Positions 4,038-52,758 of a DNA stretch of 64,000 bases are shown piece by piece. Under the pieces are notes generated by a model. It saw only the letters and a list, made by a program, of their open reading frames with translations. It searched no databases and was not told where the DNA came from. The DNA comes from Planctomycetia bacterium (GTDB lineage Bacteria > Planctomycetota > Planctomycetia > Pirellulales > UBA1268): contig BJHK01000001.1 in assembly GCA_014192425.1 (NCBI GenBank), positions 128,623 to 192,622 of the forward strand, written 5' to 3'. A program made the position numbers and the translations under genes. Every line of letters begins with the position of its first letter. Position 1 is the first letter of the stretch.

Positions 4038-4874
4038 ATGGCCGATGCCAGTCCTCCCGATCCGCTCGTCGTCGCCGAGGCCGCCGCCCGGGCGGGGGGA
4101 CGCGTGCTCCGCGACTGGGTCGGCAGGTTCGCCGTGGCCGTGAAGGGGCCGCGCGACCTCGTCACCGAGGCCGACCACGCGTCGCAGCGCGAGGTCCGCC
4201 GGATCATCGCGGACGCCTTCCCCACGCACGGCTTCGTCGGCGAGGAGGATGACGGCGGCACGGCCCGGCCGCCGGCGGGCAGCCCGGGCCACGCCGGCAG
4301 CGGCCTGCGCTGGATCGTCGATCCGCTCGACGGGACGAGCAACTACGTCCACGGGTTTCCGTTCTATTGCGTGTCGATCGCGCTGGCGTCCGACGACGAG
4401 ATCATCTGCGGCGCGATCCTCGACCCGGTCCGGGACGAATGCTTCACGGCCCGGCGCGGCGCCGGCGCCTGGCTCGACGGCCGTCCGATCCGCTGCCCGG
4501 CGGTCGACGATCCCGCCGACGCGCTGACGGGCGTCAGCTTTCCACCGCACGTCGGCCTCGACGCCAAGGCGGTGGCCGACTTCCTCGCCGTCTTGCCCCG
4601 CGTGCATTCGGTGCGCCGCACCGGCTCCACGGCACTCAACCTCGCCTACCTCGCCTGCGGCCGATTGCACGCCTTCTGGGCCCGGCGGATCGCCTGCTGG
4701 GACGTTGCCGCCGGCCTGTTGATCGCCCGCGAGGCCGGGGCCGTGATCGGGCCGTTCGGCGGCGCCGGGGAACGGATCCCGCTCGACGATCCGGCCTTTC
4801 TGGCCGCCAGCACGCCGGCCCTCCACGCCTTCTTCCACCGACTGTTCGCGGCCGGCGACGACGGCCAGTTGTAG
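4038..4874 (+). CDS. Inositol monophosphatase family protein
   Basis: 278 aa, typical length. The metal-dependent phosphatase signatures are intact: GEE at 68-70, DPLDGTSN at 95-102 (metal ligands D95 and D98) and CWDVAAG at 220-226 (D222). Family members hydrolyse inositol-1-phosphate or related sugar phosphates, or 3'-phosphoadenosine 5'-phosphate (CysQ branch). The sequence does not decide which. The frame is open far upstream, but the ATG at 4038 sits at the usual distance from the first conserved helix. It is divergent from the 241-aa hypothetical gene. Confidence 0.85.
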   Translation: MADASPPDPLVVAEAAARAGGRVLRDWVGRFAVAVKGPRDLVTEADHASQREVRRIIADAFPTHGFVGEEDDGGTARPPAGSPGHAGSGLRWIVDPLDGTSNYVHGFPFYCVSIALASDDEIICGAILDPVRDECFTARRGAGAWLDGRPIRCPAVDDPADALTGVSFPPHVGLDAKAVADFLAVLPRVHSVRRTGSTALNLAYLACGRLHAFWARRIACWDVAAGLLIAREAGAVIGPFGGAGERIPLDDPAFLAASTPALHAFFHRLFAAGDDGQL

Positions 4875-42237: not shown

Positions 42238-43959
42238 TCAGCGTGCTCGCAGGCGGCCGGCGATCGCGGCGACGGCCGCACCGAGCTGGTCGATCTCGGC
42301 GTGGGTGTTGTAGAAGGCCAGCGACGGCCGAACGGTGGCCTCGAGACCGTAGCGGCGGAGCGACGGCTGGGCGCAGTGGTGGCCGGCGCGGACGGCGATC
42401 CCCTCCCGGTCGAGCGCCCGGCCGATCTCGATCGGGTCACGGCCGTCGATCACGAACGACAGCACGCCCACCTTGTCGCGGGCCGTGCCCACGAGCCGGA
42501 GGCCGTCGATCGCCGCGAGCCTCGCGGTGGCGTGGTGCAGGAGGTCGTGCTCGTAGGCGGCGATCCGCTCGCGGCCCAGCGCCGTCACGTAGTCGAGGGC
42601 GGCGCCGAGGCCGATCGCGTCGGCGATGTTCGGCGTGCCGGCCTCGAACTTCGCCGGCGGGTCGGAATAGATCGTCCGCGCGAAGGTCACGTCGCGGATC
42701 ATGTTGCCGCCCCCCTGCCAGGGCGGCAGCGACCGCTGCACGTCGCGGGGCATGAAGACGGCGCCGATGCCGGTGGGCGCGAAGATCTTGTGCCCGGAGA
42801 AGACGTAGAAGTCGCAGCCGATCCGGCGCACGTCCACAGGAAAGTGCGACACGCTCTGGGCGCCGTCCACGAGCACGCGGGCGCCCAGCGCCTTGGCCAT
42901 GCCCGTCATCAGTTCGACCGGCAGGATCGTCCCCAGGCTGTTGGAGGCGTGTGACAGCGCGACGATCCTGGTGAGTGGCGAAAGGAGCCGGGCGTACGCC
43001 TCGATGATCACGTCGCCGCGGTCGTCGATCGGCACGACGCGGAGCACGGCGCCGGTCCGCTCGGCCACCATCTGCCAGGGAACGATGTTGGCGTGGTGCT
43101 CGAGCTCGGTGACCACGATCTCGTCGCCCCGCGAAAGGCCCGGGGCGAGGATGTTGGCGACGAGGTTGATCCCCTCGGTGCAGCCGCGGACGAAGACGAT
43201 GTCGTCGGAGCTCTCCGCACCGAGGAACGTGGCGACGATGCTCCGGGCCCGCTCGTAGGCGTCTGTCGCCCGGGCGGCGAGGGCGTGGGCGCCACGGTGG
43301 ATGTTGGAGTTGTCGTGGGCGTAGAAGGCGGCGAGGGCGTCGATCACGGCCTGCGGCTTCTGCGTCGTCGCCGCATTGTCGAGCCAGACGAGCGGCCGGC
43401 CGTGAATCCGCTCGCGCAGGATCGGGAAGTCGCGGCGGACCGCCGCGACGTCGAACGGGCCGCCGGTCGGGGTGAGCGTTGCCGGGAGGCCGGGCAGGGC
43501 CGAATCGCCGGCGCCGCCGAGCGAGACGGCGCCGAACGGCGGATCGGTGCGGAGATGGTCGAGGCCGCGAATCCGGCGTACGAACGAGCGGATGCCGGAT
43601 TCCGTGTGCTGTTGAACCTCGCGTGGTTCGCTGGTCGGGACTACCCATGCCCCATCGCCGGACGTTCGCTCCGGGCCTCCAGCCCTACGCTCACTCGGAC
43701 CAGCCTGCGCTCCGAGTCCGTCCTGCGCTCCGAGTCCGTCCTGCAATTGGCTGCTCACGCCGGCTCCCGGGGCATGGGTAGCCCCGCCCGACGTCTGATT
43801 GCGCAGCATGTGTTCATGTTCGGGAGAGAACGGCAGCCCGGGCCCGCCACCCGACATCGGCACATCGATGCCTCGGGCAACCGGCGTCTGTGACACCACG
43901 GCCCGTGCATCGGCGAGGAGCCGGGCGGCGGCCGTGGCGATGTCGTGGCCGGCGTCCAT
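42238..43959 (-). CDS. Encapsulated cysteine desulfurase (SufS class) with long N-terminal targeting extension
   Basis: 573 aa, ~165 longer than normal SufS. Residues ~169-573 are a complete group-II desulfurase: H289 (LEHHANIVPW), D365 (VDGAQS), PLP lysine K391 (SGHKIFAPTGIG) and active-site C529 (RAGHHCAQPSLRRYG). Residues 1-168 are Gly/Ala/Pro/Ser-rich and predicted disordered, with short conserved-looking islands (LPFSPEHEHMLRN at 42-54 and GIRSFVRRIRG at 122-132). Desulfurases that are cargo of family-2 encapsulins (for example with SrpI of Synechococcus) carry just such an extension, which directs them into the shell. The ATG overlaps the stop of the shell gene by one base (TGATG). It should release cysteine sulfur inside the compartment. 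Residues ~58-107 are encoded by a palindromic repeat. Confidence 0.88.
   Translation of the reverse strand: MDAGHDIATAAARLLADARAVVSQTPVARGIDVPMSGGGPGLPFSPEHEHMLRNQTSGGATHAPGAGVSSQLQDGLGAQDGLGAQAGPSERRAGGPERTSGDGAWVVPTSEPREVQQHTESGIRSFVRRIRGLDHLRTDPPFGAVSLGGAGDSALPGLPATLTPTGGPFDVAAVRRDFPILRERIHGRPLVWLDNAATTQKPQAVIDALAAFYAHDNSNIHRGAHALAARATDAYERARSIVATFLGAESSDDIVFVRGCTEGINLVANILAPGLSRGDEIVVTELEHHANIVPWQMVAERTGAVLRVVPIDDRGDVIIEAYARLLSPLTRIVALSHASNSLGTILPVELMTGMAKALGARVLVDGAQSVSHFPVDVRRIGCDFYVFSGHKIFAPTGIGAVFMPRDVQRSLPPWQGGGNMIRDVTFARTIYSDPPAKFEAGTPNIADAIGLGAALDYVTALGRERIAAYEHDLLHHATARLAAIDGLRLVGTARDKVGVLSFVIDGRDPIEIGRALDREGIAVRAGHHCAQPSLRRYGLEATVRPSLAFYNTHAEIDQLGAAVAAIAGRLRAR
43636..43786. repeat. 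Inverted-repeat element, copy 2, inside the desulfurase gene
   Basis: The ends 43636-43653 and 43769-43786 are inverted repeats matching in 17 of 18 positions (core CTACCCATGCCCC / GGGGCATGGGTAG). The interior carries CGTTCGCTCCGGGC and CGCTCACTCGGA, shared with the intergenic copies at 27.5 and 61.9 kb, and a short direct repeat (CTCCGAGTCCGTCCTGCG region, two copies). It lies wholly in frame within the disordered extension. Confidence 0.7.
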
Positions 43960-45416
43960 CAGATGCCCGCCCCCTGGGCGTAGGCCGTCCGCCCGTCGGA
44001 ACGGTAGTCGTGGTAGAAGCCGACCTCGACGTTTTCCAGGACGCCGAGGGCGTCGTCGGTGAGGACGGCGAGCGAGAAGTAGTTGGTGAGCAGGTAGGAA
44101 GCGACGCCGAGGCTGTCGAGCCCCATCAGGCGTGCCGAGAGGCTGGGCATGATTTCTCCCGGGATACCGGTCTGGTGGAGACCGACGACGCCCTGATCGG
44201 CCTCGCCCACCCTGACGAGCACGATCGACGTGGTGCCGAACGACTGGCTGTATCCCGAGCGACTCTTGACCTCCAGTTTGTCGCAGGGAACCAGCGGCAC
44301 GCCGCGCCACATGATCAGCGGCGTGCCGTGGAGCACAGTGGTGACCGGCGGCACGCCGCGCCTGGTGCACTCGCGCTCGAAGGCCGCGATCGCCTTGGGG
44401 TGGGCGAGGAAGAACGCCGGCTTCTTCCAGACCAGGGCCAGCAGGTCGTCGAGATCGTCCGGTGTCGGCGCCCCGTAGCGGGTCGAGATCCGCATCGCCG
44501 GATCGACGGCGTGGAGGAGGCCGAACTTCTGGCTGTTGACCAGCTCCCACTCCTGCCGCTCCTTGATGCCCTCGATCGTGAGCCGGATCTGCTCCTCGAG
44601 CTGGTCGTAGGGCCCGTTGTAGAGGTCGGAGACGCGGGTGTGGACGCGGACGACCGTCTGGATGGCGGACAGCGAGTACTCCCGCGGATTGGCCGCGTAG
44701 TCGACGAATGTCTCGGGGATCTCGACGTTCTCGGCATAGCCCGAGACGAGGTCGATGTTCCGCTCACCGTAGCGGTTGACCGCCGAGCGGAGGGCGAGGT
44801 GCTCCTCGATCGCCGCCCGGAAAGCGTCCCGCTGCGTGGGGACGTCGTCGAGCACGGCGTCGAGGTCCTTGCGCGAGAGGGTGAGGAGCACGCAGGGCGT
44901 GATCGTGCGGACCGTGATCCCCGAGGGGCGATCGCTCACCAGGTCCACCTCGCCGAAGAATTCACCCTCGGTGAGCAGCGCCGCCCGCAGGTCGCGGCCG
45001 TGGGCGCCCTTGGAGAGGATCTCCACCTGCCCCTGGGCGATGACGAAGAACGTGCTCCGGTCCTGGCCCTCGATGAGCAGATCGCTGCCCAGCGGCACCT
45101 CCTCGGTGCGGAACCGGGCCTGCATGCGGTCGAGGAGCGTGTCGGGCAGGTTGGCGAACAGCGGCACGCTGCGGAGCTCGCCCGCCGTGAACGACAGGCC
45201 CGCGTCGCCGGCCGCAATCTCGATCCGCTCCGCCTTCGAGAGCTCGACCTTCGTGCGGTTGACGCGGTACGTGCCCCCCTCGACCTGCACCCAGGGCAGG
45301 AGGTCGAGCAGATGCCGCGGCGTGATCGACATCATCATCGGCCGCGTCTTCGTCGTCGTGGCCAGATTGCGGGCCACGGCGGTCGTGACGCTGCGTTGCA
45401 GCAGGCTGTCGCTCAT
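43959..45416 (-). CDS. Family 2 encapsulin shell protein with cyclic-nucleotide-binding-like domain
   Basis: 485 aa. Residues 1-75 form the N-terminal arm and first part of the shell fold. Residues ~80-205 are a CNB/CRP-type beta-roll ([13 protein letters not shown], then [15 protein letters not shown], then [10 protein letters not shown] at 151-160). From ~206 onward is the HK97-like shell domain, with the encapsulin hallmarks [24 protein letters not shown] and [24 protein letters not shown] insertion defines the 2B type. In the phosphate-binding cassette FGE (154-156) is kept, but the position of the usual nucleotide-binding Arg is Ser165. The protein should self-assemble into an icosahedral cage; the coupled downstream gene is its cargo. 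It starts 69 bases after cysteine synthase on the same strand. Confidence 0.88.
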
Positions 45417-45485: not shown

Positions 45486-46409
45486 TCAGGATTCGTAAAG
45501 ACCGGTGGACAGGTAACGCTCGCCGGAGTCGGGCAGGACGACGACGATCGTCTTGCCGGCCGATTCGGGGCGGGCGGCGACCCGCAGGGCGGCATGCATC
45601 GCCGCGCCGCAGGAGATGCCGCAGAGGATGCCCTCCTCCCTGGCGACCCGCCGGGCCACGGCGTACGCCTCCTCGTTGGTGACGGTCAGCACCTCGTCGA
45701 TGAGCGTCCGGTCGAGGACGTCGGGAATGAATCCGGCGCCGATGCCCTGGATCTTGTGCGGCCCCGGCGCGCCACCGGACAGCACGGGGCTGGTGGCCGG
45801 CTCGACGGCGACGGTGTGCAGTTTTTGTCCCTGGGCTTCCTTGAAGAACCGCGACACTCCGGTGATCGTGCCGCCGGTGCCGACGCCGGCGACGAACACG
45901 TCGACCTTCCCCTCTGTGTCGTTCCAGATCTCGGGGCCGGTGGTGGCGAAGTGGATCGCCGGGTTGGCCGGGTTCCTGAACTGTTGGGGCATGAAGTACT
46001 TCGAATCCTGCGCCATCTCCTCGGCGCGGGCCACGGCACCGCGCATCCCCTCCGTGGCGGGTGTGAGCACGAGTTCCGCGCCGAGCCCCTTGAGCAATTG
46101 CCGCCGCTCCATCGACATCGACTCCGGCATCAGGAGCGTGAGCGGATAGCCCTTGGCCGCGCAGACGAAGGCGAGGGCGATCCCGGTGTTGCCGCTCGTC
46201 GGCTCGATGACGTGCTGCCCCGGCTGGAGACGGCCCGACTTCTCGGCGTCCCAGATCATCGCGGCGCCGATCCGGCACTTGACGCTGAAGGCCGGATTCC
46301 GGCCCTCGATCTTGGCCAGAAGCCGGACGTTCAGGCCGTGCGTGAGCCGGTTGATGCGGACGAGGGGCGTCCGCCCGATCGTTTCGACGTTGTCAACGAA
46401 CACTGACAT
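45486..46409 (-). CDS. cysK: Cysteine synthase (O-acetylserine sulfhydrylase)
   Basis: 307 aa. PLP lysine K44 ([15 protein letters not shown]), the substrate loop [11 protein letters not shown] and the phosphate-binding [10 protein letters not shown] are all present. The C-terminus is [16 protein letters not shown]. It makes cysteine from O-acetylserine and sulfide. It lies between a sigma-54 activator and the encapsulin-desulfurase pair on the same strand, so it would produce the substrate for the encapsulated enzyme. Confidence 0.93.
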
Positions 46410-46496
46410 GGAGAGCCTCCTGCTCGGCCCGCGTCAGCGGGCAGTCAGGCGAGCCTCCAAGAGGACCGGTCAGCGTCGCGAAGTTGAAATCGACGA

Positions 46497-46517
46497 CGGA
46501 CGAGTCTTCCTCGTCCG
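46497..46517. terminator. Hairpin between activator and cysK
   Basis: CGGACGAG-TCTTC-CTCGTCCG is a perfect 8-bp stem with a 5-base loop, 69 bases after the activator's stop on the minus strand and 88 bases before the cysK start. It may terminate the activator transcript or act in the cysK leader. No T-run follows on the minus strand. Confidence 0.4.
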
Positions 46518-46585
46518 CAAAGTTTTCCTAGGTTAGCGAGCAGGTCGGTGGTTGCCAAGACCCCGGGTTCGTCCCGTCGCCCCGG

Positions 46586-48199
46586 TCATTCCCGAAAACT
46601 CTCGACGTCGACGCGCAGCTTCCGCATCCTGGCCCGGAGCGTGTGCGGATTGATGTCAAGCAGGGCCGCGGCGCCACGCCTGCCCTCGATTCGGCCGCGG
46701 GTGGCGATCAGAGCCCGCTCGATGTGCTGCCGCATCGCCGTCGCCAGTGAGACGATCTCGCCGCCGACCGGCGCCGCGGAGATCGCAGACGAAAGCGGCG
46801 CCGGAGGGTCCTCGGGCACGACCTCATAGAGCGTGGCGTCGGCCGGCGGCCGCGGGGGCGGGGCCAGCGGCTGCCGGCCGAGTCCGAGCGCGGCGCCGAC
46901 GTCGAGCCGGCGGCCGCCGCCGAGGATCGCCGCCCGGTCGATCACGGCGCCGAGTTCGCGGATGTTGCCTGGCCAGTCGTAGGCGGCGAGCTGCTGCAGG
47001 TCGGCCGCGGTGGGCTCGACCGCCGGCAGACCGAAGCGGATTGCCGCCCGCTGGGCGAAGTGCCGGACAAGGGCGGGAATGTCCTCGAGCCGCTCGCGGA
47101 GCGTCGGCAGCAGAATGGGGAAGATGTTGATCCGATACCAGAGGTCCTCGCGAAACGTCTTCGCCTGAACCATCGCCGCCAGGTCGCGGTGGGTGGCGGC
47201 GACGATCCGCACGTCCACGTGCACCGGCGACTTGCCGCCGACCCGTTCGATCTGATGATCCTGGAGGACGCGAAGCAGGCGGACCTGGGCGGGGAGCGGC
47301 AATTCGCCGATTTCGTCGAGAAACAACGTGCCGCGATCGGCCCGCTCGAACCAGCCCTGGTGCTGCTCGGCGGCCCCGGTGAAACTCCCCTTCTCGTGCC
47401 CGAACAGCTGGGAGTCGATGAGCTCGGCCGGGATCGCGCCGCAGTTGACGCGAATGAACGGGCCGTCGGCCCGCTTCGACCGGGTGTGGATCGCCCGCGA
47501 CACCACCTCCTTGCCAGTGCCTGTCTCGCCGAGGATCAGCACCGGCACGTCCGCCTGGGCAACCAGTTCGACCCGTTCCATGACGTGCCGCAGGCCGGTG
47601 CGGGCGCCGATCACGTCCTCGTTGACGTCCTGCCTGCCCAGCCGGGAGAGGAGCGTTTCGCGGTCGGCCTCAGCCGCCTCGCGGAGCGCCTTGAGCTCGT
47701 GGAAGCGGGCGTCGTTTTCCAGCGTGACAGCCAGCGGCTCGAGCAGCTGGGCGAACGTGCCCTCATGGTCGGCGGTGAAGGCCGCGCCGTGTGTCGCCAC
47801 GGCGACGAGCATGCCGGCGTTGCCGGTTGATATCCGCAGTGGTCCCACGAGCACGTCGCCGGCGATCTCTCTGGGAATCGCCAGACGCAGCCAGTCGTGG
47901 TCGGTCGCCGCCGTCCCAAGCAGCACCGGTTCGCCGCTCGCAAGCCAGCGGCGGTACTTTCGCCACGCATCCGCTGGTAGCGGAGTCGTCCTTGCCGCCA
48001 CATGCAGGCCGTCTCCGACCAGTCCGCTGGCAAACGTCTCGATCGTGCGGTCGTCATCGTCTGCCCGGAGCACGAGCAGGGCCCGCAGCGGCATGGTGAC
48101 CGCCAGGGTTGCCGCGATTGCGGCCGTTGAACGCTCGATTTCCAGATGCCGGCAGGCCTCCCGCCAGACTGCTGCGATCAGGTCGTTGGGCATGGGCAC
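46586..48199 (-). CDS. Sigma-54-dependent transcriptional activator (GAF - AAA+ - Fis HTH, NorR-like layout)
   Basis: 537 aa. Residues ~1-165 look like a GAF sensor. The AAA+ domain (~195-430) has Walker A GETGTGKE (224-231), the sigma-54 contact loop as GSFTGA (271-276, a known variant of GAFTGA), Walker B GTLFLDEIGELP and the DWPGNIREL motif. A linker with Pro-rich sequence leads to a Fis-type helix-turn-helix (~497-535: GRRGAAALLDINPHTLRARMRKL). There is no receiver domain, so it should sense a small molecule through GAF. It is divergent from the sulfate transporter and upstream of cysK-encapsulin-desulfurase, so it is the likely regulator of both. Confidence 0.9.
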   Translation of the reverse strand: MPMPNDLIAAVWREACRHLEIERSTAAIAATLAVTMPLRALLVLRADDDDRTIETFASGLVGDGLHVAARTTPLPADAWRKYRRWLASGEPVLLGTAATDHDWLRLAIPREIAGDVLVGPLRISTGNAGMLVAVATHGAAFTADHEGTFAQLLEPLAVTLENDARFHELKALREAAEADRETLLSRLGRQDVNEDVIGARTGLRHVMERVELVAQADVPVLILGETGTGKEVVSRAIHTRSKRADGPFIRVNCGAIPAELIDSQLFGHEKGSFTGAAEQHQGWFERADRGTLFLDEIGELPLPAQVRLLRVLQDHQIERVGGKSPVHVDVRIVAATHRDLAAMVQAKTFREDLWYRINIFPILLPTLRERLEDIPALVRHFAQRAAIRFGLPAVEPTAADLQQLAAYDWPGNIRELGAVIDRAAILGGGRRLDVGAALGLGRQPLAPPPRPPADATLYEVVPEDPPAPLSSAISAAPVGGEIVSLATAMRQHIERALIATRGRIEGRRGAAALLDINPHTLRARMRKLRVDVESFRE

Positions 48200-48221
48200 G
48201 CCTCACTTGAAGAATCATGAA

Positions 48222-48283
48222 TCCGTCATATGGAACGGAATTCCGTCACTTAGCACGGGATAATTACCGTGAAATATAACGGC
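48222..48283. promoter_or_regulatory. Three tandem CCGT-N8-ACGG dyads (putative activator sites)
   Basis: Three inverted repeats with identical 8-base spacers: 48222-48239 (TCCGT/ACGGA), 48242-48259 (TCCGT/ACGGG) and 48266-48283 (ACCGT/ACGGC). They begin 20 and 24 bases apart. They lie in the divergent intergenic region, 20-85 bases ahead of the activator gene and about 105-165 bases upstream of the expected transcription start of the sulfate operon. Multiple upstream dyads are what sigma-54 activators such as NorR bind. Confidence 0.7.
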
Positions 48284-48363
48284 CTAAGTTCTTGAACGCC
48301 AAAAAACAACGTTTTTTGTCAGTTTCGGTCAGATGTGACGGCCTCCGTATGCAAATTCCGGCC

Positions 48364-48379
48364 CGGCATGCCAATTGCG
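48364..48379 (+). promoter_or_regulatory. Putative sigma-54 promoter of the sulfate-transport operon
   Basis: CGGCATGCCAATTGCG matches the -24/-12 consensus TGGCAYR-N4-TTGCW: the invariant GG (48365-48366) and GC (48377-48378) are exactly 10 bases apart, and GGCATG and TTGC are kept. Transcription would start near 48390, 70 bases before the Sbp gene. Confidence 0.65.
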
Positions 48380-48460
48380 ATCCAGGGTTCGCGACGGTGG
48401 AACGCGACCGGGCTGTTGGAGGCCGGCTGCGACCGTCCGCCGCAATCGATGGAGATAGGG

Positions 48461-49540
48461 ATGCGAGTGCCGCCACGAGTTGTCCGGTTCCTGCTTGCGA
48501 CGCTCGTTGCGTTGCCGATTGCCGGGTGTGGCTCGACCACGACCGTTCCGCCGGGGGAGGCGCCGGGGAGCAAGCCGGAGGGAGCTGGAACGGCGGCCCA
48601 GGCTCCGCTCGAACTCCTCAACGTCTCGTACGACCCGACCCGGGAACTCTACCGCGACGTCAATACGGCCTTCGCGAACCGGTACCGTGCGGAGCATGGC
48701 CGGGAGGTCACGGTCAAGCAGTCGCACGCCGCGTCGGGCAGCCAGGCGCGTGCCGTCATCGACGGCCTCGAAGCCGACGTCGTCACGCTGGCGGTCTGGC
48801 CCGACGTCGAGGCGGTTGCCAAGGCCGGACTCGTCAAGGCCGACTGGCAGCGGCGGTTCGACAACGACGCGGTTCCCTACCACTCGGTCGTGGTGTTCGT
48901 CGTTCGCAAGGGGAACCCCAGAGGGATCAAGGATTGGAAGGACCTGATCAAGGGTGACGTGTCGATCATCACGCCCAATCCCAAGACGTCCGGCAACGGA
49001 AAGTACAGCTTTCTCGCCGCCTGGGGAGCCGTGGTGGCCGCCGGCGGCAGCGAGGCAGACGCGAAGGCGTTCGTCGCCCAGCTCTACAAGCGGACGCCCG
49101 TGCTCGACACCGGTGCCCGGGCCGCGACGGCCACGTTCTCGCAGAAGGGAATCGGCGACGTGCACCTGACGTTCGAGAACGAGGCCCATCTCGAGGTCGC
49201 GGAGTCGAAGGGGGCCCTGGAGATCGTCTATCCGCAGCGGTCGATCCGCGTCGATCCGCCCGTTGCCGTCGTGGACGTCAACGTGGACAAAAAGGGAACG
49301 CGGCACGCAGCCGAAGCGTACCTGGGCTTCCTCTACACGCCCGAGGGGCGGGAGATCATCGCCCGACATCATTACCGGCCATGGGGCGCGTCGCCGCCGG
49401 CGCCGGCCGCGGGCGAGTCATGGCCGGCCATCGAGACGTTCGACATCGCCGCCGTTGGCGGCTGGCCCGTGGCCATGAAGGCGTTCTTCGGCGAAGGGGG
49501 CGTGTTCGACGCGATCTATCAGCCGGCGGGCGGTCAATGA
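48461..49540 (+). CDS. Sulfate ABC transporter substrate-binding lipoprotein (Sbp/CysP)
   Basis: 359 aa from the ATG at 48461 (GGAG nine bases upstream). A lipobox LPIAGC ends the signal peptide near residue 24, so the protein is membrane-tethered rather than freely soluble. Family motifs: LLNVSYDPTRELY, DVVTLAVWPDV, NPKTSGNGKYSFLAAWG and a C-terminal RHHYRPWG. It binds sulfate or thiosulfate outside the inner membrane. First gene of the transport operon; its stop overlaps the cysT start (ATGA). Confidence 0.92.
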   Translation: MRVPPRVVRFLLATLVALPIAGCGSTTTVPPGEAPGSKPEGAGTAAQAPLELLNVSYDPTRELYRDVNTAFANRYRAEHGREVTVKQSHAASGSQARAVIDGLEADVVTLAVWPDVEAVAKAGLVKADWQRRFDNDAVPYHSVVVFVVRKGNPRGIKDWKDLIKGDVSIITPNPKTSGNGKYSFLAAWGAVVAAGGSEADAKAFVAQLYKRTPVLDTGARAATATFSQKGIGDVHLTFENEAHLEVAESKGALEIVYPQRSIRVDPPVAVVDVNVDKKGTRHAAEAYLGFLYTPEGREIIARHHYRPWGASPPAPAAGESWPAIETFDIAAVGGWPVAMKAFFGEGGVFDAIYQPAGGQ

Positions 49541-50490
49541 GCCGGGGTGTGACGGGGAACCCGGCCCAGACGAGGAGCATGGTCCAGACGGGCATGAACA
49601 GCGCCGCGCGATCCGTGACGGCCGCCCCGCCCCCCGGGCGGCCAGCATCGTTTTCGGCCCAGCCCGGCCGGCGGCGCGGGCCGGCCGTGCTGCCCGGCTT
49701 CGCACCGAGCGCCGCGATCACGTCGCTCGTCATCACGGCGCTCGTGATCGTGCCGCTGGCGGTGCTCATCCTGCGGGCCGCGTCGCTCGGGCCGCAGGGG
49801 TTTCTCGCCGCGGCCTGGACGCCCCGGGCCCGGGCCGCCTACGGCGTGTCGCTCGGCGCCTCGCTGCTGGCCGCCACCGTCAGCGCCCTGCTCGGCCTCG
49901 TCGTCGCCTGGGTGCTCGCCCGCGTCGAGTTTCCCGGCCGCCGGATCCTCGACGCGCTCGTGGACGTGCCGCTGGCCCTGCCCACAGCTGTGGCCGGCCT
50001 CGTCTACTCGGCGCTGTACGTCGAGAAGGGCTGGCTCGGCCAGTGGCTCGTGCCGCTGGGCGTCAAGGGAGCCTATTCGTATCTCGGCATCGTGCTGGTG
50101 CTCGTGTTCGTCAGCCTGCCGTTCGCGGTCCGTGTCGTGCAGCCGGTGATCGAGAGCCTCGACCGCGACACCGAGGAGGCGGCGCGGATCCTCGGCGCCT
50201 CGCGGCAGCAGACGTTCTTTCGCGTCGTGCTTCCGGGGATCCTGCCCGCCGTCGTCACCGGCTTCGCCCTGTCGCTCGCCCGGGCGCTCGGCGAATACGG
50301 CTCCGTCGTCTTCATCTCGGGCAACATGCCGTTCAAGACCGAGATCGCCCCGGTGCTGATCGTGGCCCGGCTCGAGGAGTTCGCCTACGCCGAGGCGACG
50401 ACGATCGCGGTCGTGCTCCTGGCGATGTCGCTGACGCTCCTCGTCGTCGTCAACGCGCTGCAGCAGCGACTCGCCCGCAACGCCCAGTAG
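49537..50490 (+). CDS. cysT: Sulfate ABC transporter permease CysT
   Basis: 317 aa, starting by ATGA overlap with the binding-protein gene. The first ~55 residues are an unusual polar, Pro/Ala/Arg-rich cytoplasmic extension. Six hydrophobic helices follow, with the ABC-permease EAA loop (EEAARILGASRQQTFFRVVLPGILP). CysT-like signature: LPTAVAGLVY and ARALGEYGSVVFISGNMPF. It pairs with CysW to form the channel. Confidence 0.92.
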   Translation: MSRGVTGNPAQTRSMVQTGMNSAARSVTAAPPPGRPASFSAQPGRRRGPAVLPGFAPSAAITSLVITALVIVPLAVLILRAASLGPQGFLAAAWTPRARAAYGVSLGASLLAATVSALLGLVVAWVLARVEFPGRRILDALVDVPLALPTAVAGLVYSALYVEKGWLGQWLVPLGVKGAYSYLGIVLVLVFVSLPFAVRVVQPVIESLDRDTEEAARILGASRQQTFFRVVLPGILPAVVTGFALSLARALGEYGSVVFISGNMPFKTEIAPVLIVARLEEFAYAEATTIAVVLLAMSLTLLVVVNALQQRLARNAQ

Positions 50491-50512: not shown

Positions 50513-51391
50513 ATGTCTTCGCCCCGAACAACACCGACGCTCGCCTCCCCCGCGATCAACGCCGGCCTCGTGGCCGCCGCCGCCGGCATCGTCGGCCTGC
50601 TGATCGTGGTGCCGCTGGTGAGCGTGTTTTTCGAGGCGTTCGCCGCCGGGCCCGCGGCCTGGTGGGCCGCGCTGGCCCACGATCCCGACACGCGGCACGC
50701 GATCTGGCTGTCGCTGACGGTGGCCCCCGTGGCCGTGGCGGTCAACACGGTGTTCGGCGTCGCCGCCGCCTGGCTCGTGGCCCGGTTCCGGTTTCCGGGG
50801 CGGTCGATTCTGATCTCGCTGTTCGACGTGCCGTTTTCCGTGTCGCCCGTCGTGGCCGGGCTGGCACTGGTGCTGATTTTCGGCCGGCAGGGGCTTCTCG
50901 GGCCGACGCTGGCCTGGCTCGACTGGAAGGTGATCTTCTCCTGGCCGGGCCTCGTGCTGGCCACGACGTTCGTCACGCTGCCGCTCGTCGTCCGCGAGCT
51001 GATCCCGGTTATGGAGGCGATCGGGCCGGAGGAGGAAATGGCCGCCGTGAGCCTCGGCGCCAGCGGCTGGCAGGTTTTTTGGCGGGTCACCCTCCCCAAC
51101 ATCCGCTGGGCGCTGTTGCACGGGATCGTGCTCGCCAACGCCCGGGCGATGGGGGAGTTTGGCGCCGTGTACGTGGTCAGCGGCCACATCGCCGGAGCCA
51201 CCGACACGATGCCGCTGCGTGTCGAAAAGCTCTTCCAGGAATACCGCACGCCGGCCTCGATGGCCGTGGCCAGCGTTCTCGCCAGCCTGGCCCTGGTCAC
51301 ACTCGTGGCCAAGTTCGTCATCGAGCGGCGGCTGGAGGCCGAGTCGCGCGACCGCGACGCGGTCCGGGAGGCCGGCGCGGCCGGCGGCTGA
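50513..51391 (+). CDS. cysW: Sulfate ABC transporter permease CysW
   Basis: 292 aa, 22 bases after cysT. Six helices, an EAA loop ([20 protein letters not shown]) and the CysW-type [37 protein letters not shown] is conserved in the family. Second channel subunit of the sulfate/thiosulfate importer. Confidence 0.92.
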
Positions 51392-51429: not shown

Positions 51430-52530
51430 ATGAGCATCCATGTCCGTGACATCACGAAGGCCTTCGGCAGTTTCAAGGCCCTCGACCGGGTCTCGCTCGA
51501 CGTGCCGGACGGCACGCTGCTCGCCCTGCTCGGTCCCTCGGGGTCGGGCAAGACGACGCTCCTACGAATCATCGCCGGCCTCGAGTATCCCGACGAGGGC
51601 GTAATCGTCGAGGATGGCGAGGACATCACCGAGCGGCACGCCCGGCAGCGGGAGGTGGGCTTCGTGTTCCAGCACTACGCGCTGTTTCGCCACATGAGCG
51701 TCTTCGAGAACGTCGCCTTCGGGCTGCGGGTCCGGAAAACGCCGCGGGCGGAAGTGACGCAACGGGTCGAGGAGCTGCTGCGGCTGGTGCGGCTGGAGGG
51801 ACTCGGGGGGCGGAAGCCGTCGCAACTCTCCGGCGGCCAGAGGCAGCGTGTGGCCCTCGCCCGGGCGCTCGCCATCCGGCCCAAGATCCTGCTTTTGGAC
51901 GAGCCGTTCGGGGCCCTCGACGCCAAGGTTCGCGTCGAACTGCGGCAGTGGCTGCGCCGGCTGCACGACGAGATCGGGATGACGAGCGTGTTCGTGACCC
52001 ACGACCAGGAGGAGGCCTTCGAACTGGCCGACGAGGTCGTGGTCATGAACCACGGGCGGATCGAGCAGCAGGGGACGCCAGATGCCGTGTTCGACAACCC
52101 GGCGACGCCCTTCGTGATGGACTTCCTCGGCCACGTGAACGTGTTCCACGGCCGGGTCGAAAACGGCCGCGCCTTCTGGCACGGGATCCCGATCGACTAT
52201 CCCGATTACCCGCATGCCCAGGCCCGCGAAGCCCGCGTCTACCTCCGCCCCCATGAACTGGAACTCTCTCCCTTGACTGATCACGGGCAAGCCGTGGCCG
52301 GCAACGGCCGGGAGCGGACCAGCCTTCCGGCAAGCGTGGTCCGAGTTTCACGGGCCGGAGCGATTACACGCGTGTCTTGCAGGCCCCACGGCTCGGAGGC
52401 CGAGGTGCAGGTCGATATTCCGACAGAGACGGCACGGGGTTTGCAATCAGTTCTGGAGCCGGGGACGCACGTGGCGATTACACCACGGAACGCTCGCGTG
52501 TTTCTCCCCGGTCCCGAGTACGTGATCTGA
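51430..52530 (+). CDS. cysA: Sulfate ABC transporter ATP-binding protein CysA
   Basis: 366 aa from the ATG at 51430. Walker [10 protein letters not shown] (35-43), signature [15 protein letters not shown], Walker [15 protein letters not shown] and the H-loop VTHDQEEA are intact. Residues after ~240 form a C-terminal regulatory/TOBE-like domain. It energises CysT/CysW. Followed after 30 bases by the DUF2292 gene. Confidence 0.94.
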
Positions 52531-52560: not shown

Positions 52561-52758
52561 ATGAGCAGGCCCGACCACGAGGTTCCGAACGCAAGCGAAC
52601 GCGGCGCGGTCGTCCCACCTGCGGGACGGACGGACGCGGCGCTGCGGCGGATCGGCGAGGCGCTCCACGGACTCAAATACGGCTCGGTGCTGGCAATCGT
52701 CCAGGACGGCGTCGTCGTCCAGGTCGAGCGGACGGAGAAGATTCGGTTCGGCAAGTAG
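52561..52758 (+). CDS. DUF2292 (YezD-like) small protein
   Basis: 65 aa. The C-terminal 40 residues match DUF2292: LHGLKYGSVLAIVQDGVVVQVERTEKIR. Proteins of this type are often encoded beside sulfate-assimilation genes, and here it closes the cysA operon, which supports a role in sulfur metabolism. No biochemical function is known to me. Confidence 0.82.
   Translation: MSRPDHEVPNASERGAVVPPAGRTDAALRRIGEALHGLKYGSVLAIVQDGVVVQVERTEKIRFGK

Follow-up and report, generated by a model that had tools for sequence, protein, structure and literature searches.

Putative sigma-54 control of sulfate uptake by a NorR-like activator and a conserved three-dyad array in Planctomycetia

In the 64 kb stretch of planctomycetal DNA analysed here (the window), a GAF-AAA+-Fis activator gene and a sulfate ABC transporter operon diverge from an intergenic region (48194-48460) that holds three inverted repeats followed by a sigma-54-type -24/-12 element. 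We propose, as very probable, that the protein is a NorR-like sigma-54 activator which is specific to one pathway, the assimilatory uptake of sulfate, and is induced when sulfur is limiting. Three activator dimers would occupy the three dyads and so help the AAA+ hexamer to assemble; looping of the DNA would bring this hexamer to the sigma-54 RNA polymerase poised at the -24/-12 element, and, upon a signal of sulfur shortage from the GAF domain, ATP hydrolysis would open the promoter, so that sbp-cysT-cysW-cysA-DUF2292 would be transcribed from a predicted start near 48390. With site 1 positioned 30 bp ahead of the activator start codon, binding there probably also tunes the expression of the activator itself. 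The sulfur signal is inferred from the targets.

The three CCGT-N8-ACGG dyads that the sequence-only reading had described are indeed present, with start-to-start distances of 20 and 24 bp (Table 1). The window contains nine such motifs, against 2.4 expected and a count that no shuffle reached, and the array scored as a triple gives 47.4, compared with a best of 15.6 among 100 window shuffles. Under a matrix refined on the upstream regions of the family, with the window's own sites excluded from training (leave-one-out), the three dyads rank first to third in the 64 kb; the refined motif, about CCRTSAWATWTSAYGG, has an AT core and is longer than CCGT-N8-ACGG. Neither this longer motif, nor the weak fourth dyad, nor the DUF2292 gene after cysA had figured in the sequence-only reading. 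The A/T-tract inverted repeat is possibly an intrinsic bend; A/T tracts of at least five are found in 7 of 15 family loci, that of the window among them.

Table 1. Coordinates of the features discussed, in window positions; dyad centres are relative to the predicted transcription start.
Feature	Position	Strand	Sequence	Remarks
Dyad 1	48223..48238		CCGTCATATGGAACGG	CCGT-N8-ACGG; centre about -160; leave-one-out score 14.8
Dyad 2	48243..48258		CCGTCACTTAGCACGG	CCGT-N8-ACGG; centre about -140; leave-one-out score 14.0
Dyad 3	48267..48282		CCGTGAAATATAACGG	CCGT-N8-ACGG; centre about -116; leave-one-out score 18.3, top-scoring site of the window
A/T-tract inverted repeat	48300..48319		CAAAAAAC-AAC-GTTTTTTG	Between array and promoter
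Possible fourth dyad	48326..48341		CGGTCAGATGTGACGG	Score 13.3, fourth best in the window; weaker, not conserved in relatives
-24/-12 element	48364..48378	+	CGGCATG-CCAA-TTGC	GG-N10-GC; place conserved in relatives
Sulfate-binding protein (sbp)	48461..49540	+		TIGR00971, 8.6e-106, above cut-off
cysT permease	49540..50490	+		TIGR02139, above cut-off
cysW permease	50513..51391	+		TIGR02140, above cut-off
cysA ATPase	51460..52530	+		TIGR00968, above cut-off; CysA_C_terminal
DUF2292 (YezD-like) small protein	52561..52758	+		PF10055, 3.8e-16; last gene of the proposed operon
GAF-AAA+-Fis enhancer-binding protein	46586..48193	-		535 aa; ATG at 48193; GSFTGA loop
cysK	45486..46409	-		TIGR01139, above cut-off; not counted as a shown target
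Family 2B encapsulin shell protein	43959..45416	-		NF041163, 581 bits, above cut-off
Cysteine desulfurase	42238..43959	-		TIGR01979, above cut-off; NF041166, 734.9 bits against a cut-off of 800

A search for CCGT-N8-ACGG arrays through the 3.98 Mb genome returned the paired array at this single locus, besides a match at C20:60578. The latter was rejected as a second array: the core of its dyad is not rich in AT, and the dyad itself overlaps a terminator-like hairpin of 12 bp that follows a stop codon. A perfect TGGCACG-N4-TTGC stands at G000:C20:60741 (L004, L133), after that dyad and before a DUF1254-like gene. Allowing up to two mismatches to the motif gave 16 sites in the genome versus 12 in the control, and only two sites have one mismatch, namely site 3 of the window and a site by a second activator copy; a wider regulon in the source genome was rejected on these counts, and the regulon there seems small. 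The second copy, apparently partial, lies at a contig end (G000:C20:65992-66652; L133:13993-14653), with two overlapping dyads and TGGCACGGCAGGTGC ahead of a cysteine synthase gene. PAPS reductase-type genes were also located.

The -24/-12 element has the exact GG-to-GC spacing claimed for it, and rpoN, on which the sequence-only reading had made its proposal depend, is present in the genome (Sigma54_DBD, 4.4e-60, at C1:81674). Taken alone, the motif is weak evidence, because such elements are only twice as common in the genome as their reversed control (22 versus 11), and the case for it rests on conservation in relatives. Linkers between array and promoter cluster at 80-82, 90-93, and 102-104 bp in the family (R 0.77 at 10.5 bp), and outside it at 69-76 and 83-86 bp with weaker phasing (R 0.44); these clusters, which shared ancestry confounds, are suggestive of a helical phasing of the array to the promoter. 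Downstream, the sulfate ABC transporter is identified by all four of its components. The sequence CGGCACGGGGTTTGC at 52430-52444, within cysA just ahead of the DUF2292 gene and with a weak dyad upstream, may be a chance occurrence.

A search with the GAF domain across 60 genomes of the same family recovered orthologues of the activator, 64-77% identical, in 16. Upstream of them lie related dyads and, in almost every case, a good sigma-54 promoter, and the sites are spaced by 20 and then 23-24 bp in nearly all of the 15 loci measured. The co-occurrence of array and activator can be counted over the 22 usable sulfate-binding-protein loci of the family: where the genome has the activator, array and promoter are found at sbp in 12/12 loci, and where it does not, in 0/10 is there an array or promoter. 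The probability of this division is 1.5e-6 if the loci are independent, a figure weakened by shared ancestry, since the counted loci are related and hence not independent events. Array and promoter thus appear only where the activator is present, which supports control of sulfate uptake through the array, and with it the earlier suggestion that the layout is here applied to sulfur uptake.

Beyond the family, a contig scan yielded 64 relatives of the activator, labelled as Planctomycetota, Hydrogenedentota, Gemmatimonadota, Rokubacteria, Desulfobacterales, Lentisphaerales, Latescibacterota, and others; some of these labels may be wrong, because most of the relatives are metagenome bins. One is on a complete Gemmatimonadota chromosome (L103), where sbp-cysTWA is accompanied by the array and TGGCACGGGCGTTGC. 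With the family-trained matrix, the array exceeds the 99% null threshold in 41 of 48 loci outside the training family, a clear array being missing in 7 distant ones, and the 20-21/21-24 bp spacing recurs in 65% of the 48 as against 4-5% of controls. The contig-scan loci were selected by the short peptide VWRxxxRH, so that its conservation is unreadable from them; at order level, loci were found by profile without the peptide, and the array is present in all 18 examined (scores 20-53, versus at most 5 when shuffled). Sulfate ABC genes lie near the activator in about 37 of 62 annotated loci, by our own count. Elsewhere the divergent genes encode ATP sulfurylase, TauE/SafE, an SLC13-type carrier, a PstS-like binding protein, a molybdopterin oxidoreductase, a porin, or cysteine synthase, and in several no sulfur-gene identity was recognised. 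In L161 and L162 the array is directly followed by a DUF2292-like gene, and in L162 a DUF1254 gene comes after it. The activator becomes less frequent with distance: it was found in 54 of the 196 genomes of the order and in 12 of 294 drawn from across the phylum.

The divergent gene product is the type of protein that had been claimed. Its AAA+ domain (Pfam Sigma54_activat, PF00158, 1.7e-70, plus AAA_lid_14) carries a GAFTGA-type loop, as in sigma-54 enhancer-binding proteins, in the form GSFTGA, which is listed among the functional GAFTGA variants (PMC4641369). The C-terminal match to HTH_8 (7.8e-4; 19.6 bits, just under the cut-off of 22) we count as a Fis-type helix-turn-helix, and within it INPHTLRARMRKL is invariant throughout the family. 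The GAF_2 match is likewise just below its Pfam cut-off; the GAF domain was modelled at a pLDDT of 94.9 and matches GAF structures. The fold search with this model matched many GAF domains and indicated no ligand, and a search of a plasmid collection for relatives of the domain found none.

The claimed likeness to NorR holds for the layout and not for the identity of the protein. In the NorR/norVW system of Escherichia coli K-12, as here, a one-component GAF-AAA+-Fis activator is divergent from its target, with a sigma-54 promoter downstream of three sites; the palindromic NorR sites start at 4303, 4324, and 4348 of L160, a spacing of 21/24 bp compared with 20/24 bp in the window, and all three are essential as enhancers, forming a scaffold for oligomer assembly (PMC2941729). 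The geometry of the array is practically the same, and the NorR analogy is therefore right as to the working mode. The activator is, however, not a NorR orthologue: its AAA+ domain is 48% identical to that of E. coli NorR, but BLASTP similarity is confined to this domain and none was detected in the GAF domain; the NorR iron-centre residues R75, Y98, D99, H111, and C113 are replaced by K, W, L, gap, and gap (in a part where the alignment is weak); and the NCBIfam NorR model NF003451 matches only from residue 120 on, with 322 bits against an equivalog cut-off of 476. The sites also differ, being GT-N7-AC for NorR and GT-N8-AC with CC/GG flanks in all three sites here, as do the linker from array to promoter (about 55 bp versus 81 bp) and the target, which here is sulfate uptake. 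NifA shares the GAF-AAA+-Fis architecture and is the best NCBIfam match by score; it was rejected as well, since its 326.9 bits fall short of the TIGR01817 cut-off of 528.85 and the targets are not those of nitrogen fixation.

Activator, array, and sigma-54 promoter might all work as proposed and yet answer to a signal other than sulfur limitation, the GAF domain sensing redox state, sulfide, NO, or some other small molecule, with sulfate uptake as one part of the response. We regard this as unlikely, though deserving of serious attention: GAF domains in proteins of similar architecture respond to diverse ligands, NO in the case of NorR (PMC2941729), and a Cys-His motif near the start of the GAF domain, WREACRH, is strongly conserved, including in 18/18 loci chosen without the peptide. 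Against it, this cysteine is Ser or Gly in three family members, the NorR iron-centre residues are missing, and the recognised targets across phyla are genes of sulfur uptake and assimilation. It is a good deal less credible that the dyads serve as operators for some unrelated regulator acting on the divergent region, with the activator working elsewhere; site 1 is near enough to the activator start for an operator role, but the array tracks the activator gene and not sbp (it is absent at 10/10 sbp loci in genomes lacking the activator), its spacing matches that of NorR, another three-site enhancer-binding protein, and the partial second activator copy in the same genome has its own dyads before cysteine synthase. 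Mere chance in a GC-rich genome, where the window has six further copies of CCGT-N8-ACGG and the genome 22 of the promoter motif, can practically be dismissed in view of the triple score relative to the shuffles and the conservation across genera and phyla.

Sigma-54 control does not appear to extend to the neighbouring cysK-encapsulin-desulfurase cluster, for which we rejected it: there are no dyads upstream, nor is there a sigma-54 promoter before the cluster. A conserved TTGGCA-N17-TAACCT-like promoter lies ahead of cysK (46558-46530, minus strand), and the region formed by this sigma-70-like promoter and a leader (46410-46586, minus strand; AAACTTTGCGG ... GCTGACCGGTCCTCTTGGAGGC) is common to six loci; an Rfam search of the window, including the cysK leader, gave no match. 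Without dyads and with its own conserved sigma-70-like promoter and leader, the cluster is probably controlled separately. Its cysteine desulfurase is likely the encapsulin cargo, and the pairing of shell and cysteine desulfurase resembles the family 2 encapsulin sulfur systems, one of which, SrpI, increases when Synechococcus is starved of sulfate (PMC8049743); the link to the array is one of proximity only. Two tandem encapsulin shell genes are found near the activator, sulfate transporter, and cysteine desulfurase in L068, L097, and L100.

What is known of the control of sulfate uptake comes mainly from regulators of the LysR, Rrf2, and CRP types: CysB, CymR, and CysR, which regulate genes of sulfate uptake and cysteine synthesis, do the same physiological job as that proposed here, but act with sigma-70 and are not known to use an enhancer array or sigma-54. 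SfnR of Pseudomonas putida is, as is proposed for the present protein, a sigma-54 activator in sulfur nutrition, and is linked to sulfate starvation (works cited in PMC8234197). It differs in controlling the use of dimethyl sulfone and in being itself regulated by CysB, and it is known neither to control sulfate transport nor to have a sensor domain. Our search of the literature, mainly open-access, turned up no description of a regulator of this kind that controls sulfate transport through sigma-54.

Sigma-54, with its obligatory ATP-driven activation, appears to run sulfate uptake in Planctomycetota and in scattered members of other phyla. There is perhaps an even chance that the relatives make up a cross-phylum family of one-component sigma-54 activators serving as the sulfur-limitation regulator of their hosts, the GAF domain reading a sulfur metabolite, and that the three-site spacing is a general rule of hexamer assembly. 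NorR and the sulfate activator family differ in their sensors and their sites, yet both have spacings of 20-21 and 22-24 bp, so this array makes it possible to test clearly whether a trio of sites separated by about two helical turns generally builds activator hexamers.
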